The notes under the pieces: generated by a model | Told to the model about the DNA's origin: nothing | The model's input: the letters and a program-made list of their open reading frames with translations, nothing else | The model's database searches: none | Made by a program: the position numbers and the translations under genes | DNA from: an uncultured Alphaproteobacteria bacterium | Lineage (GTDB): Bacteria; Pseudomonadota; Alphaproteobacteria; MPNO01; UBA830 | Direction: 5' to 3' | DNA: 56,133 nucleotides | NCBI GenBank assembly: GCA_913046035.1 | Contig: CAJWSW010000011.1 | Coordinates: 1 to 56,133, forward strand | Shown: positions 2,620 to 33,535 of the stretch, piece after piece | Layout: each line of letters begins with the position of its first letter | How positions within the stretch are numbered: the first letter of the stretch is position 1

Positions 2620-5448
2620 TTGGCTGAAGAATCCGTTCACCCGCCACCCACTGGGTCTGACATCGAGCAAGTTTCGATTGAGGACGAAATGCGGAAGTCA
2701 TACCTCGATTATGCGATGAGTGTGATCGTCAGCCGAGCATTACCGGATGTCCGTGACGGCCTAAAGCCTGTTCATCGTCGAATCCTGCACGTGATGAACG
2801 AGAGTAATTACGACTGGAACCGGCCGTACCGCAAATCGGCCCGCGTCGTTGGTGATGTAATGGGCCAGTACCATCCGCATGGTGATCAAGCAATATACGA
2901 TGCCATGGTGCGCATGGCCCAAGACTTCTCAATGCGACTGCCGCTCATTGATGGGCAGGGTAATTTTGGCTCCATGGACGGCGATCCGCCAGCAGCGATG
3001 CGGTATACGGAAGCGCGGCTAGAGCGAGTAGCACGTGAGTTACTTGATGATATAGACAAAGATACTGTCGATTTTCAGCCCAATTATGACGAAACAACAA
3101 AAGAGCCAACAGTTCTTCCGGCTAAATTCCCCAATCTATTGGTAAATGGTGGTGGCGGGATTGCGGTTGGTATGGCCACCAACATCCCACCGCACAATCT
3201 AGGTGAAGTTATCGATGCATGCTGTGCGCTAATAGATAATCCAAATGCCTCGATTGCTGATCTTATGGAGGTTATTCCCGGCCCTGATTTTCCGACGGGT
3301 GGCACCATCGTTGGTCGACAAGGTCTGACAAGTGCCTTCGAGACCGGACGAGGCTCGGTAGTAATGCGTGGAAAGGTCTCTATCGAGGAGATCCGCAAAG
3401 ACCGTGACGCGATAATTGTCTCGGAAATACCTTACCAAGTGAATAAGGCGCGTATGATCGAGCGCATAGCGGAAATGGTGCGCGACAAGAAAATCGAGGG
3501 AATTAGCGATCTTAGAGACGAGTCGGATCGAGAGGGCGTGCGGGTTGTTATCGAGATTAAGCGAGATGCCTTGGCAGAGGTCGTACTAAACCAACTCTAC
3601 AGGTACTCGCCACTTCAAACCAGTTTCGGCGTTAATACGCTCGCGCTTAATGGTAATAAGCCGCAACTACTGAACCTCAAGCAGATCCTCGAGGCATTCC
3701 TAGAGTTTCGCGAAGAGGTAATCCGTCGACGCACTGAATTTGATCTTTCAAAGGCCCGTGATCGCGCGCATGTATTAGTTGGCCTCGCAATCGCGGTTGC
3801 TAATATAGACGAAGTTATTGCCCTCATTCGTGGCGCCAAAGACCCTGTAGAGGCTCGCACCGGATTGATGGAGCGGGAATGGCAGGCGGAGGACGTAGCC
3901 TCACTGATAGAGTTGATCGACGATCCAAATCATTCAGTGGTTGGAGGGCGATATCGTCTTTCCGAGGCTCAGGCTCGTGCAATATTGGAACTGCGACTGC
4001 AACGGCTGACCGGTTTGGAGCGGGAAAAGATTGCCGAGGAATTGAGCGGGCTAGCATCAGAAATTGAGGACTATCTTGACATTTTGAGGTCTCGAGATCG
4101 CATACGCAGTATGATGCGAGATGAAATGCTCACTGTAAAAGAACAGTTTGCGACGCCGCGCCGGACTACTATCGAAGAGTCAGAACTTGAAACCGATATC
4201 GAAGACCTTATCCAAAAGGAGGATATGGTCGTCACGGTAAGTCACGCTGGTTACATAAAACGTGTTGCGTTATCAAGTTATCGGGCACAGCGCCGGGGTG
4301 GAAAAGGCCGCGCCGGAATGAGTACCCGTGACGAGGACTTTGTCAGCAATGTGTTTGTCTGTAATACACACACACCGGTACTTTTCTTTTCATCCCGCGG
4401 CATTGTATACAAACTAAAAGTTTACCGTCTCCCAGAGGGAAACCCTCAGGCGCGTGGAAAAGCGCTCATAAACCTTCTTCCTTTGGAGGAGGGAGAGACA
4501 ATCACCGCAGTCATGCCGATGCCTGAGGATGAAGGCGGCTGGGGTGAATTGTTCATACTGTTCGCTACAGCTTCCGGCGGCGTGCGACGCAATCGCTTAT
4601 CCGACTTCACAAATATTATGGCTAACGGAAAAATAGCAATGAAGCTGGATGATGGAGATCAGCTTATTGGTGTTAAGACGTGCAAAGAAGACCAAGATGT
4701 TTTACTGGCCGCTGACAGCGGAAAGAGCATTCGTTTTCCTGTGACTGAGGTGCGTGTATTTTCGGGGCGGACATCAACAGGTGTTAGAGGCATAAGGCTT
4801 CTAGACGGCCAAAAGATCGTTTCAATGACAATGCTGACCCATATCGAGCAAGGCACGGACATTCGAGATGCTTATTTGCGGATGTCAAAGGCTCGCCGTC
4901 GTCAGGAGGGTGATGAAGACACAATTGGCATGGAGGATGTTACATCCAGTGAAGCCGATGAAAGCGACAACATTACACTATCTGATGAACAGTTTGAAAA
5001 GCTGGCCTCGTCTGAAGAATTTATATTAACAGTTACTGAAAACGGTTACGGCAAAAGAACATCGGCTTTTGAGTATCGAACTACCAAGCGAGGTGGTCAG
5101 GGCGTCGTCAATATTACAACAGCCGGACGTAACGGTGCAGTGGTGGCTTCATTTCCTGTCGAAGACAGTGACCAAATGATGCTGGTGACAAACGGCGGTA
5201 AAATAATCCGAAGTCCAGTGGCTGATATCCGAATTGCCGGCCGTTCAACTCAAGGCGTAACGCTGTTTGACACTGCCGACGATGAAAAGGTTGTTTCAGT
5301 TGCACACCTCAAGGAAACCGAAGAAAACCCCGAAGGCAAAAAAGTGGATGTCGGAGAGACCGACGAAGACGATGCGGAAATCTTAGCCGGTGTGGATGAA
5401 GTTGAAGGAACCCGCGGAGAAGTGGACGACAGCGCCGAGGGGGCGTAA
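2620..5448 (+). CDS. gyrA: DNA gyrase subunit A
   Basis: Breakage-reunion subunit of DNA gyrase, which introduces negative supercoils with GyrB. The 942-residue protein begins at a TTG; an in-frame stop lies just upstream and the conserved [20 protein letters not shown] follows at about residue 21, so this start is well supported. Catalytic Tyr129 lies in [10 protein letters not shown] (E. coli Tyr122). The GyrA box QRRGGKG is present and begins the C-terminal beta-pinwheel. The quinolone pocket reads [12 protein letters not shown]: the E. coli Ser83 position is Gln90, while Asp94 (E. coli Asp87) is kept. The C-terminal tail is acidic. The gene is followed 34 bases later by coaD. Confidence 0.98.
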
Positions 5449-29833: not shown

Positions 29834-30601
29834 TCAATTCATCACGAGCCCGCCATCCACATAAAGTGTTTGTCCTGTCATAAACTCACTCCATGATGAA
29901 GCGAGAAATAAGACAGGTCCGGCGACGTCTTCCGGTCTCGCTATTCTTCCCAAAGGGGTTTGCATCGAGATCGTATCCTTAATCATTTCCTTTGTGTTAA
30001 CGGTGCCTTCAGTCGGATAGACCAAACCAGGCGCGACGCAGTTAACTCTTATACCGAGCGGCCCGAGTTCAACGGCAAGATTGCGACTAAAGCCAATTAG
30101 GGCAGATTTGGCCGTGGTGTATTCATGATAGGGGATTGACGGGCGGGCAACGAGATCAGTTGCAACATTTATGATAGCTCCATTAGATCGTCGTCGCATG
30201 CCTGGCAGTACCGCCTTGCACACGCCATGAGCTGACATCAAAGCCCCATCAATTTGCGCCTGATAGTCTGACCAATCGAGTTCCCAAAACATCTTTCTGT
30301 TTTCCTGATCAAACGTATAGGGCTTGAAGGCGTTATTAACGAGAACATCGATTTTGCCAAAATTTTCCAGAACGTTACTCACAAGGTCGTCAACCGCCTC
30401 TCCAACGGTCACATCAGCCTTGAACGCCAACGCATCACCAACCTCAGTACAGCAAGCAGTAACAACCTCATCCGCAGCTTCCGAATTTTTCAAGTAGTTT
30501 ATTGCTACCGACGCCCCCTCGGCGGCAAAAGCCCTAGCAATGGCGGCACCGATCCCACGGCCTGAACCGGTTACGAGGACCACTTTCCCTTCAAAATTCA
30601 T
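29834..30601 (-). CDS. Short-chain dehydrogenase/reductase, third gene of TPP-riboswitch operon
   Basis: A 255-residue classical SDR. The cofactor loop TGSGRGIG is at 11-18, NNA at 89-91 and catalytic YTTAK at 161-165. The usual catalytic Ser position in INVATDL seems to be Thr148, which is less common. The C-terminal GQTLYVDGGLVMN is typical of FabG-like SDRs. It follows the LuxC-like gene by 38 bases, so it is in the same transcript. I infer that it reduces the aldehyde made by LuxC to an alcohol, or oxidises in reverse. The substrate is not known. Confidence 0.85.
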   Translation of the reverse strand: MNFEGKVVLVTGSGRGIGAAIARAFAAEGASVAINYLKNSEAADEVVTACCTEVGDALAFKADVTVGEAVDDLVSNVLENFGKIDVLVNNAFKPYTFDQENRKMFWELDWSDYQAQIDGALMSAHGVCKAVLPGMRRRSNGAIINVATDLVARPSIPYHEYTTAKSALIGFSRNLAVELGPLGIRVNCVAPGLVYPTEGTVNTKEMIKDTISMQTPLGRIARPEDVAGPVLFLASSWSEFMTGQTLYVDGGLVMN

Positions 30602-30639
30602 AGAATGTCCTGTCGTTGCGATTTTTTAAGTGTTTAAAC

Positions 30640-32112
30640 TCAATCAACAAAAGTCGCCAAGGTGTCAGCGCCGTCGATGGCTGATTGTTCAATTTCCGTT
30701 AACGTCACCAAATCAAGCAGATTAAATCGCCCGTCATGGTGCCAGCCAGCTTCGGGTTTTGTCATACAGCCAAGAGCGCTTACCCTTGTTACCCCGGAGA
30801 GCGCTAGTGAATTTGAGAGATTAAATAATTGATCTGGTGATGCAGAAATACCGACAGTTTGAAGGGTAGTTTTATAGGGCGCGATCAGGGGGACTACTTC
30901 AGCAAGTGCGTCAACTGCAACGACCTTGATCGTTCGATTTAGACTGCTTGGTGAAAGTCTCTCTGTATGGTCGACAAAGGCTACACTCCAGCTTTTACCG
31001 GCGGAACCAATTAGTCCTCCGGCAGGATCGTCAAACGATTTAATTTCCTCTTCATTGCGCCAAGCAGCAATATTATTCAAGTCGCCATCAGAAAGGGACC
31101 GGCGCGGATATTTACTCTCGAACACGTCAAGCTCATGAGCGAGATATTCCGCGAATTCCCGCGGTGAAACCTTTCCACCCCGCTCTACAAAAAATACATG
31201 AGGTGAATAACAACCATGTTGGTCGTAGCGCATAACGTCGTAGGCGGCCTTGTGCGCATTGAGTTTTCCTTTTTGGATGTCCAATGCATCCTTAGAAATC
31301 ATGCCGAAGCCTACTTTATGCCCGTAAGCTAAAAATCGCGTTGTGATTGGCGTGCGATCACGCATGGATTTGAGCGCATCATTGCCCCCGTATGCGAGCA
31401 CTGCTTCAGACCCTTCGAGTAAAATGCTCTCAAGCCTAGTGTTTCCACCTTTCCACCAAACGACCGCGAAGCAGTCGGAAATCTCGGGTGCAACCGCCGC
31501 AATCGCCTCAGCAAACCAGCCCGCAAAAAGTGGTTCGGCACTCGGCACCTTTCCGATGTTACCTGCTTTCACAAGAAGGCCTGAAATCATGCTCCAAATT
31601 GGGAGCCCGGGAACATTACCCGACCATATATGAGTGAGAAGATCAGGGCCATACGCGCGGGCATATCCGCCTTTCGGAACGGGCTGAAAGTCATCGAGAA
31701 TAGTGGGGTTCGCAAAATCCTCGACAAGAAATTTCTGAAGCTCGGGTTTTCGAAAGGTTTTCAGATATCCGGTCAAACCCAAACGTATCATCTCTGCATC
31801 GTAACCGGTTACAAGCGGTAAAATTTCCTCGCATTTTTTTCGATAAGGATCGTTTCGGTCGAGAAGGCGATTAATCGCGCAATCAATAATCTCAATGATC
31901 TGTGCCACAGGCATGGCCTTTAACTTCGTACGAGCAGCGTTTCGGACACTTGTTGTGAGTGTCCTCACCTGATCTTCTGAAAGTAGGGGAACCTGTATCT
32001 CAAATTTGGATCCGACACCGTCAAAATATAGTGCCTGCCACTCAACCTCGTCGACCGACAAGCCAGGCAAGTAACCTCCGCGCTCAATCATTTTTTTATC
32101 GCCCACATTCAA
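30640..32112 (-). CDS. LuxC-like acyl-CoA/acyl-protein reductase
   Basis: NADPH-dependent reductase that takes an acyl group from LuxE or CoA onto a Cys and reduces it to the aldehyde. The 490-residue length fits LuxC (about 480). The active-site Cys301 is in YDQHGCYSPHVFFVERGG, which matches the LuxC catalytic segment. HIWSGNVPGLPIWSMISGLL and SAEPLFAGWFAEAI are also typical. It overlaps the luxE-like gene by 4 bases (ATGA) and precedes an SDR. No luxA, luxB or luxD is present, so bioluminescence is excluded; the pathway is likely reduction of a specific carboxylate. Confidence 0.9.
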   Translation of the reverse strand: MNVGDKKMIERGGYLPGLSVDEVEWQALYFDGVGSKFEIQVPLLSEDQVRTLTTSVRNAARTKLKAMPVAQIIEIIDCAINRLLDRNDPYRKKCEEILPLVTGYDAEMIRLGLTGYLKTFRKPELQKFLVEDFANPTILDDFQPVPKGGYARAYGPDLLTHIWSGNVPGLPIWSMISGLLVKAGNIGKVPSAEPLFAGWFAEAIAAVAPEISDCFAVVWWKGGNTRLESILLEGSEAVLAYGGNDALKSMRDRTPITTRFLAYGHKVGFGMISKDALDIQKGKLNAHKAAYDVMRYDQHGCYSPHVFFVERGGKVSPREFAEYLAHELDVFESKYPRRSLSDGDLNNIAAWRNEEEIKSFDDPAGGLIGSAGKSWSVAFVDHTERLSPSSLNRTIKVVAVDALAEVVPLIAPYKTTLQTVGISASPDQLFNLSNSLALSGVTRVSALGCMTKPEAGWHHDGRFNLLDLVTLTEIEQSAIDGADTLATFVD

Positions 32113-33212
32113 GTTTGCGCGGCATTCAAGAATTCCTCAACCGCCATTGAGCAGCCCCTCGCGTCGTTACCATCGGCACGACCTAATAGTTTGAAACCAT
32201 CAGCAGTTGCGATGCCCGCGTCTTCAGTCAGGATTGATGTAACGATATTAAAATGCGCAAGATCGCAATGTGCTAGAACTCCTCTTTCACCTTGAGGCAA
32301 TTCTCTGCCAGTAACCGGGTTTACGACACGGGTTTTTATCCAGTGTGGTCCAAATTTAACGGATGGACAAACTACATTTCCTTGGTCATAAAACTGCGTA
32401 CTAAGCTCCGTCATGCCGTACATGTTGATGCACATATCGCGCGGGACCCCAAAAGCCCTCGAAATATCGGTGTAGAAGTCATCTAGCGTAGGTGCATTCG
32501 ACTTGGTTTTAAATCCGCCAGTATCAAATAACCGACTACCTGCAGGAAGTGAGAACGAAATTTCGCGTGCTCTCATCTCCTCCAACAGCGGAATATAACT
32601 ATAACTCGCGCCAAGAAGAGCATGAGGCTCCTTATTTACCTCAGCCTCATTTAGCCTCTCAAAAAGAGCTTCAAAATCGATACCTTCATGGTTCATTACA
32701 TAAGCACTTTGCGGAGTACCAAAATTTTTAATGGCCAGTGAGAAGTAGTGGGCTAACGAAGAATTCGGCATAACCTCTTCTGAGGGATATAAGACGCTCA
32801 TTTCGATACTGTCCCTATCGGCAATAAAGAATTCCTTAAAACCACGGGTCATAGAGGCGTCATACACGTCTAAACTTGAATGATAGCTTTTGCCCTTTAC
32901 TCCAGTCTCCGTCGTGCCACTGGTTGTAAACAGATATGGGGCGTCGTCAGGCCGACAGCAGGACAAACAAAGTTTCTTAAAGGCGTTAATCGGTACGAGG
33001 GGTATATCCTGCCATGACTTCACTGTGCGTGGGGTTCGTCCGCGTTGAGATGAAAAATGACGAAAAGGATCATTGAAACTAAATTGATACCTGTAGAGCT
33101 CGAGCGCTATTTCGTTGAATACTTCATTCGAAGTCGTTGACCCAACAATTGCGCGTTCATCATCCGCGACAATAAAGTCCAGTAAAGTTTCGATAATCTT
33201 CTCTTGTGTCAT
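32109..33212 (-). CDS. LuxE-like acyl-protein synthetase
   Basis: ANL-superfamily enzyme that adenylates a carboxylic acid and loads it on a C-terminal Cys for transfer to LuxC. I use the ATG at 33212 (MTQEKIIETLLDF); a TTG two codons earlier is possible. Length is 367 residues, normal for LuxE. The adenylate-binding stretch LFTTSGTTETGVKG is clear, MYGMTELSTQFYD matches the A5-like motif, and the acyl-accepting Cys354 lies in GNDARGCSMAVEEF. It is the first gene after the TPP riboswitch. Ribosome-binding sequence is weak, which fits translation control by the riboswitch. Confidence 0.9.
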   Translation of the reverse strand: MTQEKIIETLLDFIVADDERAIVGSTTSNEVFNEIALELYRYQFSFNDPFRHFSSQRGRTPRTVKSWQDIPLVPINAFKKLCLSCCRPDDAPYLFTTSGTTETGVKGKSYHSSLDVYDASMTRGFKEFFIADRDSIEMSVLYPSEEVMPNSSLAHYFSLAIKNFGTPQSAYVMNHEGIDFEALFERLNEAEVNKEPHALLGASYSYIPLLEEMRAREISFSLPAGSRLFDTGGFKTKSNAPTLDDFYTDISRAFGVPRDMCINMYGMTELSTQFYDQGNVVCPSVKFGPHWIKTRVVNPVTGRELPQGERGVLAHCDLAHFNIVTSILTEDAGIATADGFKLLGRADGNDARGCSMAVEEFLNAAQT

Positions 33213-33304
33213 GCCCAAACTACTGCATTACCATTCAAGTGATCCGACTAATGCTTTCGGGGTGGGGCAGACTGACAACGCAGTGATTATGCGAAGACAT
33301 CCCG

Positions 33305-33408
33305 TTTCCCTACGCCGGCACAACCCGGATCAGGTTCTAAGGGTCGTCGTGTTGGCACCTTGCGCCGCGTCGACATCTCAGCTTCCTAACGAAGCTCCCC
33401 TAGGGTTC
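33305..33408 (-). promoter_or_regulatory. TPP riboswitch (THI element) controlling the LuxE-LuxC-SDR operon
   Basis: Read on the minus strand, the element starts CCCTAGGGGAGC (near 33405), then GCTGAGATG (33382-33374). It continues with a variable P3 arm, then CCCTTAGAACCTGATC (ending 33328) and CGGGTTGTGCCGGCGTAGGGAA (ending near 33306). The conserved THI boxes GGGG-x-GC, CTGAGA, ACCTGATC and GCGTAGGGAA are all present, and CCCTA/TAGGG can form P1. About 93 bases separate its end from the luxE-like ATG. Binding of thiamin pyrophosphate is expected to repress the operon. Confidence 0.95.
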
Positions 33409-33535
33409 GATCCCCGAGTATGACAACGGGAATGCATGAGGACAACCCGATAAGTGAACGAAATTACCACTCGTTACCTATACTCCTAATCTAATCGTCT
33501 GGTGTTTTCGTAAATTTTTAAAAGACGGGAATACT

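Follow-up and report, generated by a model that had tools for sequence, protein, structure and literature searches.

The conversion of an acyl group to an aldehyde by LuxE and LuxC is well described in bacterial luminescence: an acyl-AMP is formed at the expense of ATP, the acyl group moves to a cysteine of LuxE and then to a cysteine of LuxC, and hydride transfer releases the aldehyde. Genes of the same two families, preceded by a thiamin pyrophosphate (TPP) riboswitch and followed by a gene for a short-chain dehydrogenase/reductase (SDR), lie in that order on the minus strand at positions 29834-33411 of a contig of 56,133 nucleotides from an uncultured alphaproteobacterium (CAJWSW010000011.1, assembly GCA_913046035.1; hereafter the window). 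The link of this LuxE-LuxC-SDR operon with thiamin metabolism is near certain. Judged from sequence, the operon probably salvages the thiamin pyrimidine under repression by TPP and would reduce 4-amino-2-methylpyrimidine-5-carboxylate to 4-amino-5-hydroxymethyl-2-methylpyrimidine (HMP).

Carboxylate reductases of the CAR (carboxylic acid reductase) type proceed through adenylation, thioester formation and NADPH reduction, all within a single large protein that bears a phosphopantetheine arm. The same three steps are proposed for the operon, with the difference that the work would be divided between separate LuxE and LuxC proteins using cysteines as carriers. A second point of comparison is the salvage of thiamin precursors under TPP riboswitches. 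N-formyl-4-amino-5-aminomethyl-2-methylpyrimidine (FAMP) is taken up by ThiXYZ, which works together with YlmB and TenA. In SAR11 bacteria HMP has been reported to enter through ThiV under a TPP riboswitch (PMC11452348). The operon resembles these systems in its riboswitch class, in the THI5-type ATP-binding cassette (ABC) importers of its relatives and in the provision of HMP for ThiD. Known salvage relies on uptake of HMP or on hydrolysis of amino and formylamino pyrimidines, whereas a reduction of an acid driven by ATP and NAD(P)H is proposed here. The LuxC-LuxE fatty acid reductase of Photobacterium phosphoreum (PDB 7xc6) shares with the operon the adjacent LuxE and LuxC families, the acyl cysteines and the LuxC fold, but the operon differs from it in the TPP riboswitch, the SDR gene behind luxC and the linkage to thiamin genes, as well as in the lack of luciferase or LuxD in the six neighbouring open reading frames (ORFs) scanned and in scores far under the luminescence cut-offs.

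An SDR under THI control was reportedly named oarX by Rodionov in 2002. A literature search found no paper that connects a TPP riboswitch with LuxE or LuxC in the thiamin sense, and the main texts of two riboswitch surveys contain no lux- word (PMC2211319, PMC3766115; supplements not covered). The novelty of a TPP-controlled LuxE-LuxC-SDR operon, already suspected in a first-pass annotation of the window that knew of no such pathway, is provisional.

Riboswitch and enzymes of the window operon

The features of the operon are the following, with the starts of LuxE and LuxC taken as suggested by alignment:

33289..33411, minus strand: TPP riboswitch aptamer (Rfam RF00059, 69.2 bits; gathering score 54.3; positions 1-105 of 105)
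33213..33288, minus strand: leader from the aptamer to the luxE start, presumed to be the expression platform (fold z -0.50)
32109..33212, minus strand: LuxE-like acyl-protein synthetase, 367 aa (PF04443, E 6.9e-22, 78.3 against 24.9 bits; ATG 33212, alternative start TTG 33218)
32151..32153, minus strand: codon of LuxE Cys354, the expected acyl-thioester cysteine (numbered from ATG 33212)
30640..32091, minus strand: LuxC-like acyl-protein/acyl-CoA reductase, 483 aa (PF05893, E 2.4e-90, 303.7 against 21 bits; ATG 32091, alternative start TTG 32112)
31210..31212, minus strand: codon of LuxC Cys294, the expected catalytic cysteine (numbered from ATG 32091)
29834..30601, minus strand: SDR, 255 aa, proposed for the aldehyde-to-alcohol step (PF13561, E 1.2e-57)

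The first-pass annotation had read a THI element followed by LuxE-like, LuxC-like and SDR genes, and the family searches bear out each of these. By score and full length the aptamer belongs to RF00059, and its strongly conserved stretches CUGAGA, GAACCUGAUCCGG and CCGGCGUAGGGA are all unbroken; it reaches 3 bases past the interval first given (29834-33408) and is the single TPP match in the genome of the window (2.78 Mb, 127 contigs, 91% complete). It would bind TPP and repress luxE-luxC-SDR. The fold of the leader 3' of the aptamer is not distinctive and a clear sequestering hairpin was not found in it; a scan for promoters and terminators returned no more than chance. The three genes lie on one strand, separated by 17 and 38 nt, a spacing that points to the single transcript claimed at first reading.

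Both cysteines predicted in that reading were followed through 64 related loci (L071, L073 and L134 omitted). LuxE Cys354, invariant in the first LuxE alignment (A1), is a cysteine in all 64; the LuxC cysteine is conserved in 63, the remaining locus (L131) stopping short at a contig end, and its number becomes Cys294 rather than Cys301 when counted from the ATG. Searched against PDB sequences at E 0.001, the LuxE alignment has 7xc6_E as its sole relative (E 3.6e-29) and the LuxC alignment has relatives only from 7xc6 (7xc6_A, E 8.6e-38). The predicted model of LuxC (predicted local distance difference test, pLDDT, 74.7) gives 7xc6_A as the top fold match and aldehyde dehydrogenases next. Family scores, conserved cysteines and the LuxC fold thus place the pair in PF04443 and PF05893. 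The predicted LuxE model has a fold like that of PaaK and further ligases acting on small and aromatic acids, which may speak weakly for a small pyrimidine acid; 7xc6_E, which the sequence search detects, is not among the best 50 fold matches listed. In the SDR, Tyr161 and Lys165 are invariant across the 24 sequences aligned.

When compared with the curated luminescence equivalogs, LuxE reaches 76.9 of 550 bits and LuxC 89.3 of 750 bits. These scores are so far under those of the long-chain fatty acid enzymes that the two proteins are best regarded as a separate branch. Nine ORFs of the locus scanned with Pfam, six of them neighbours, contain no luciferase or LuxD family, in agreement with the absence of luxAB and luxD noted at first reading; in both respects, the equivalog scores and the missing luxA, luxB and luxD among the six neighbours, the operon departs from a luxCDABE fatty acid reductase. 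A divergent gene adjoins the operon, outside the riboswitch transcript, in two close relatives (L002:2066-3262 and L024:3603-4706): that of L002 encodes a luciferase-like flavin monooxygenase (PF00296) and that of L024 is similar by eye.

Recurrence with TPP aptamers and thiamin genes

The gathering of other TPP-riboswitch/luxC/luxE loci, proposed as a check in the first-pass annotation, yielded 67 distinct related loci from Alpha-, Beta- and Gammaproteobacteria, Bacilli and plasmids (the window, L002-L024, L063, L064, L066-L076 and L119-L149 minus L134, which is the same record as L072). L070 and L071 are near-identical cassettes counted as two, and L058-L061, which duplicate L004, L012, L013 and L015, are uncounted. 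A TPP aptamer lies upstream in 64 of the 67, so that homologous operons consistently without the riboswitch, the outcome named beforehand as unfavourable, are not what is seen. The aptamer was absent from all 7 control loci of distant LuxC relatives (at most 27% identity; taken from 25 distant among 52 records with a LuxC match). Because the arrangement recurs at related loci and is missing from the distant ones, a chance association is excluded.

These loci were reached by several routes. A pattern-based scan of species genomes with LuxE turned up 23 loci, all with LuxC and SDR and 21 with the aptamer. LuxE occurs in 7 of 385 genomes of the class of the window; two of these were newly found, belong to another family and both have the aptamer. 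Among plasmids, 44 records match LuxE, 27 of them closely (38-55% identity) and 17 distantly (at most 27%); 11 of the close loci were examined, ten with aptamers over the cut-off and the eleventh (L068) accepted on an Rfam score below it (49.0 bits, E 8.4e-7) and on 55.8 bits in the aptamer model R1. The family to which Bacillus sp. MUM 116 belongs has LuxE in 34 of 193 genomes, 31 of them outside the first set, and R1 detects the aptamer in 30 of these 31 loci (L134 among them) and in none of the 7 control loci. R1 holds 12 pairs only and so works mostly by sequence; it was built partly on the aptamers of L072 (the same as L134), L063 and L064 (the same as L150 and L151), where its matches are not independent. 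An Rfam recheck of nine Bacillaceae loci placed eight over the gathering score and L119 not. L131, whose contig ends behind luxE, shows only a 19.5-bit fragment of the aptamer and is counted, with L011 and L023, as one of the three loci that lack it.

A tandem pair of TPP riboswitches stands before thiW on a Niallia megaplasmid (L072:2621-2917), and tandem pairs occur in several relatives too. In a further Bacillaceae locus, a tandem pair of cobalamin riboswitches lies directly behind the SDR gene (L119:1500-2079). A distant LuxE-family gene (22-24% identity) on 13 other Priestia plasmids, which carry no LuxC match, is probably part of a different LuxE-like system.

Linkage to thiamin genes was seen as operons with thiM, thiD, thiE, thiW, thiG, thiH, thiF and thiC across other genomes, and thiM, thiD, thiE, thiW or thiC fall inside the examined stretch of 24 of the 67 loci. 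The main arrangements are these:

Bacillus MUM 116 (L019) and UNC438 (L022): TPP - nucleobase-type permease - luxE - luxC - SDR - thiM - thiD - thiE
Tuberibacillus (L020): TPP - thiM - thiD - thiE - permease - luxE - luxC - SDR
Seven Bacillaceae loci (L121, L122, L125, L127-L130): TPP - thiM - thiD - thiE, then TPP - thiW - luxE - luxC - ABC - SDR
L146: TPP - thiM - thiE - thiD - TPP - thiG - thiH - luxE - luxC - ABC - SDR - tenI-like gene - thiF-family gene
Ramlibacter (L018): TPP - thiD - luxE - luxC - ABC - SDR
L014: TPP - thiC - TPP - luxE - luxC - ABC - SDR

The thi families were confirmed by family search for L019, L020, L121, L146, L018, L072, L142 and the thiC of L014. The tenI-like gene of L146 scores 241 of the 251 bits needed for the tenI model, and L147-L149 agree with L146 in thiM, thiE, thiD, both aptamers, the lux genes, ABC, SDR and the tenI-like gene. 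In Ramlibacter, thiD alone stands directly before luxE. ThiW, which we take to be a thiazole carrier, has its own gene in 15 of the 67 loci. An importer is part of 52 of the 67 operons, 35 with an ABC transporter whose binding protein is of the NMT1/THI5 type and 17 with a xanthine/uracil-type permease; importers and thi genes were counted at 40% or more similarity to a few reference proteins, so that other importers could be missed. One ABC binding protein finds ThiY (E 4.6e-7) and Thi5 (E 5.9e-7) among its solved relatives, with two other binding proteins ranking higher.

It is in the light of this linkage that an ordinary fatty acid reductase with an incidental riboswitch has to be weighed. 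Long-chain acids are the best-known substrates of the LuxC and LuxE families, and plasmid records now annotate the pair as a long-chain fatty acid--CoA ligase and an acyl-CoA reductase. Fatty acid reduction was nevertheless rejected, as scarcely credible, because of the aptamers (64 of 67 loci, none of 7 distant ones), the thi genes (24 of 67) and the low equivalog scores.

The operon also appears to move between lineages. In a LuxC tree a single long branch (support 97/98) sets 34 thiamin-linked rows apart from 7 distant ones, and LuxC from a plasmid of Priestia megaterium falls together with two alphaproteobacterial LuxC (94/92, not starred), apart from the permease-type Bacilli; because of a program warning about meeting long branches, the tree was used only for that split and that placement, and the ABC-type Bacillaceae loci, found later, lie outside it. 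The cassette TPP - permease - luxE - luxC - SDR is carried by a 10-kb plasmid of Lactiplantibacillus plantarum and a 21-kb mobilizable plasmid of Levilactobacillus brevis. These copies, from two lactobacillus genera, are identical at 4930 of 4932 bases (L070:1390-6321 and L071:2947-7878), and both records come from South Korea. On a plasmid of Pseudomonas silvicola, luxE carries no annotation and is matched only as separate pieces; it is probably broken (L073:4979-5984).

The likely acid and its proposed fate

It has been proposed since the first reading that the operon encodes a carboxylate-to-alcohol reductase serving thiamin, a proposal that the conserved riboswitch and the thi-gene linkage support. 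When TPP is low, the riboswitch would permit expression of the operon. LuxE would then adenylate 4-amino-2-methylpyrimidine-5-carboxylate, the oxidised form of HMP, with ATP and take the acyl group on Cys354; the acyl group would pass to LuxC Cys294, and hydride transfer from NAD(P)H would release the aldehyde, which the SDR would take to HMP. ThiD could convert HMP to HMP pyrophosphate, and ThiE would couple this with the thiazole. The chemistry is assigned by analogy with the luminescence enzymes, and the reductive direction is suggested by a first step that spends ATP and by control through a class of riboswitch whose usual role is to repress genes of thiamin supply.

The choice among acids rests mainly on whole-genome searches of 24 carriers (20 proteobacteria and 4 Bacilli). 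Many of these are metagenome-assembled genomes, so that single absences are weak, and completeness is given for the genome of the window only. Hydroxyethylthiazole (HET) kinase, ThiM, has a true match in none of the 20 proteobacterial genomes and is present in the 4 Bacilli only. The HMP kinase ThiD is strong in 22 of the 24 (18 of the 20 proteobacteria), ThiE is found in all 24 and true ThiG in 17. Matches to ThiG of at most 33.7 bits, to ThiM of at most 22 bits and to ThiD of at most 115 bits were discarded as unrelated barrels and kinases; Thi4, considered as a thiazole source, matches in all 24 genomes, but the matches listed are short and mostly N-terminal (best 35.7 bits) and none was credited. 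Without ThiM, HET is unusable by the known pathway in the proteobacterial carriers and HMP is usable. The missing proteobacterial ThiM, the thiD of the Ramlibacter operon and the THI5 or nucleobase type of the importers together make 4-amino-2-methylpyrimidine-5-carboxylate the most likely acid, one of the substrates first suggested.

A thiazole-side acid, either 4-methylthiazole-5-acetic acid reduced to HET or thiamin acetic acid reduced to thiamin, was also suggested, and is unlikely. Like the pyrimidine carboxylate, thiazole acetic acid and thiamin acetic acid are thiamin breakdown products (a literature search by the names of these acids found no paper), and thiM and thiW accompany the module in 14 and 15 of the 67 loci. 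HET would lead nowhere in the 20 proteobacterial carriers, 17 of the 24 genomes have ThiG, thiD rather than thiM precedes luxE in Ramlibacter, and the importers are of the THI5 or nucleobase type. The case is less firm against thiamin acetic acid than against the HET version, since the genome searches did not cover thiamin kinase. The carboxylated thiazole cHET, named as a further candidate at first reading, was rejected as chemically unlikely, because its conversion to thiamin removes the carboxyl group instead of reducing it.

The distribution of thiC bears on whether the acid comes from outside. In the first carrier set thiC is absent from 19 of 24 genomes, over the cut-off in 4 and in pieces in 1, whereas 22 of 33 further carriers have it (26 of 57 over the cut-off overall). 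Within the class of the window, thiC is found in none of the 7 LuxE-bearing genomes and in 128 of the 378 others, a difference that is not significant (Fisher p 0.10); it is found in 128 of all 385 genomes, so that two thirds lack it regardless of LuxE. A general replacement of ThiC by the module was therefore dropped, as the class-wide control and the further carriers removed the argument for it; the module fits salvage. A related idea is that the acid is made internally and that the module ends a ThiC-independent route to HMP. This agrees with the lack of thiC in the 19 first-set genomes and with loci in which neither importer kind is recognised, 10 of them alphaproteobacterial (the window, L002, L003, L004, L007, L009, L012, L013, L017 and L024) and 3 on plasmids (L066, L073 and L074), but it appears very unlikely given the importers within 52 of the 67 operons and the thiC of the 22 further carriers; no gene for making such an acid turned up, although no dedicated search was made.

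There is also the question of whether the SDR acts on the product of LuxC. Its sequence does not tell its specificity (223 SDR models match), and the aldehyde could be the end product, or the acid could be another vitamin-related compound. Such readings are decidedly improbable: a related SDR (at least 40% identity) is present in 66 of the 67 loci, missing only in L131 at the contig end, and ThiD needs the alcohol HMP.

Several observations weigh against salvage of the pyrimidine acid. Neither importer kind was recognised in 15 of the 67 loci, the window operon among them. In the Bacilli, the thiM and thiW beside the module leave room for a thiazole acid. Scores so far under the luminescence cut-offs mean that family membership does not tell the substrate, and the distribution of thiC lends no support. 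Even at E 5 no TPP aptamer is seen in L011 and L023, whose genomes (G010 and G022) carry thiC, that of G010 in pieces. Finally, the genome of the window has no thiC match, no true ThiG, ThiM or Thi4 match (a lack of thiC or thiG was to be checked, according to the first reading) and no strong ThiD, so that its own thiamin route is incomplete as read.

That last genome (G000) is itself incomplete, and its clade mates G001, G002 and G023 have strong ThiD. All four keep ThiE and show no ThiC, true ThiG, Thi4 or ThiM match, which leaves no known thiazole source. In G001 and in G005 a further TPP riboswitch precedes an ABC transporter of the LIV type whose binding protein belongs to Peripla_BP_6 (L078:6391-7773 and L079:1257-2384, respectively); in these genomes, which have no true ThiG, ThiM or Thi4, the transporter is a candidate importer of thiazole or thiamin.

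A proposed reductive branch of vitamin B1 salvage

Vitamin B1 auxotrophy is common in plankton. Recent surveys give HMP, 4-amino-5-aminomethyl-2-methylpyrimidine (AmMP), FAMP, HET and cHET as its exchangeable precursors (PMC10881298, PMC10470507). The evidence leans slightly towards an unrecognised natural pool of 4-amino-2-methylpyrimidine-5-carboxylate, returned to HMP by a dedicated, horizontally moving LuxE-LuxC-SDR module, often with an importer and a TPP switch, in carriers from the sea, soil, plant surfaces and fermented food. As part of the same joint reading, and held with the same modest preference, the module would add a reductive branch to B1 salvage and give the LuxC-LuxE pair a task outside luminescence.

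If this is true, an acid-reducing branch would add to the current lists of precursors a compound that they leave out, the luxE-luxC pair would become a marker for that acid, and predictions of auxotrophy would change for genomes without thiC. It would also be a case of a LuxC-LuxE pair working outside bioluminescence, apparently on a small vitamin-related acid, which may be useful for obtaining aldehydes from heteroaromatic acids.

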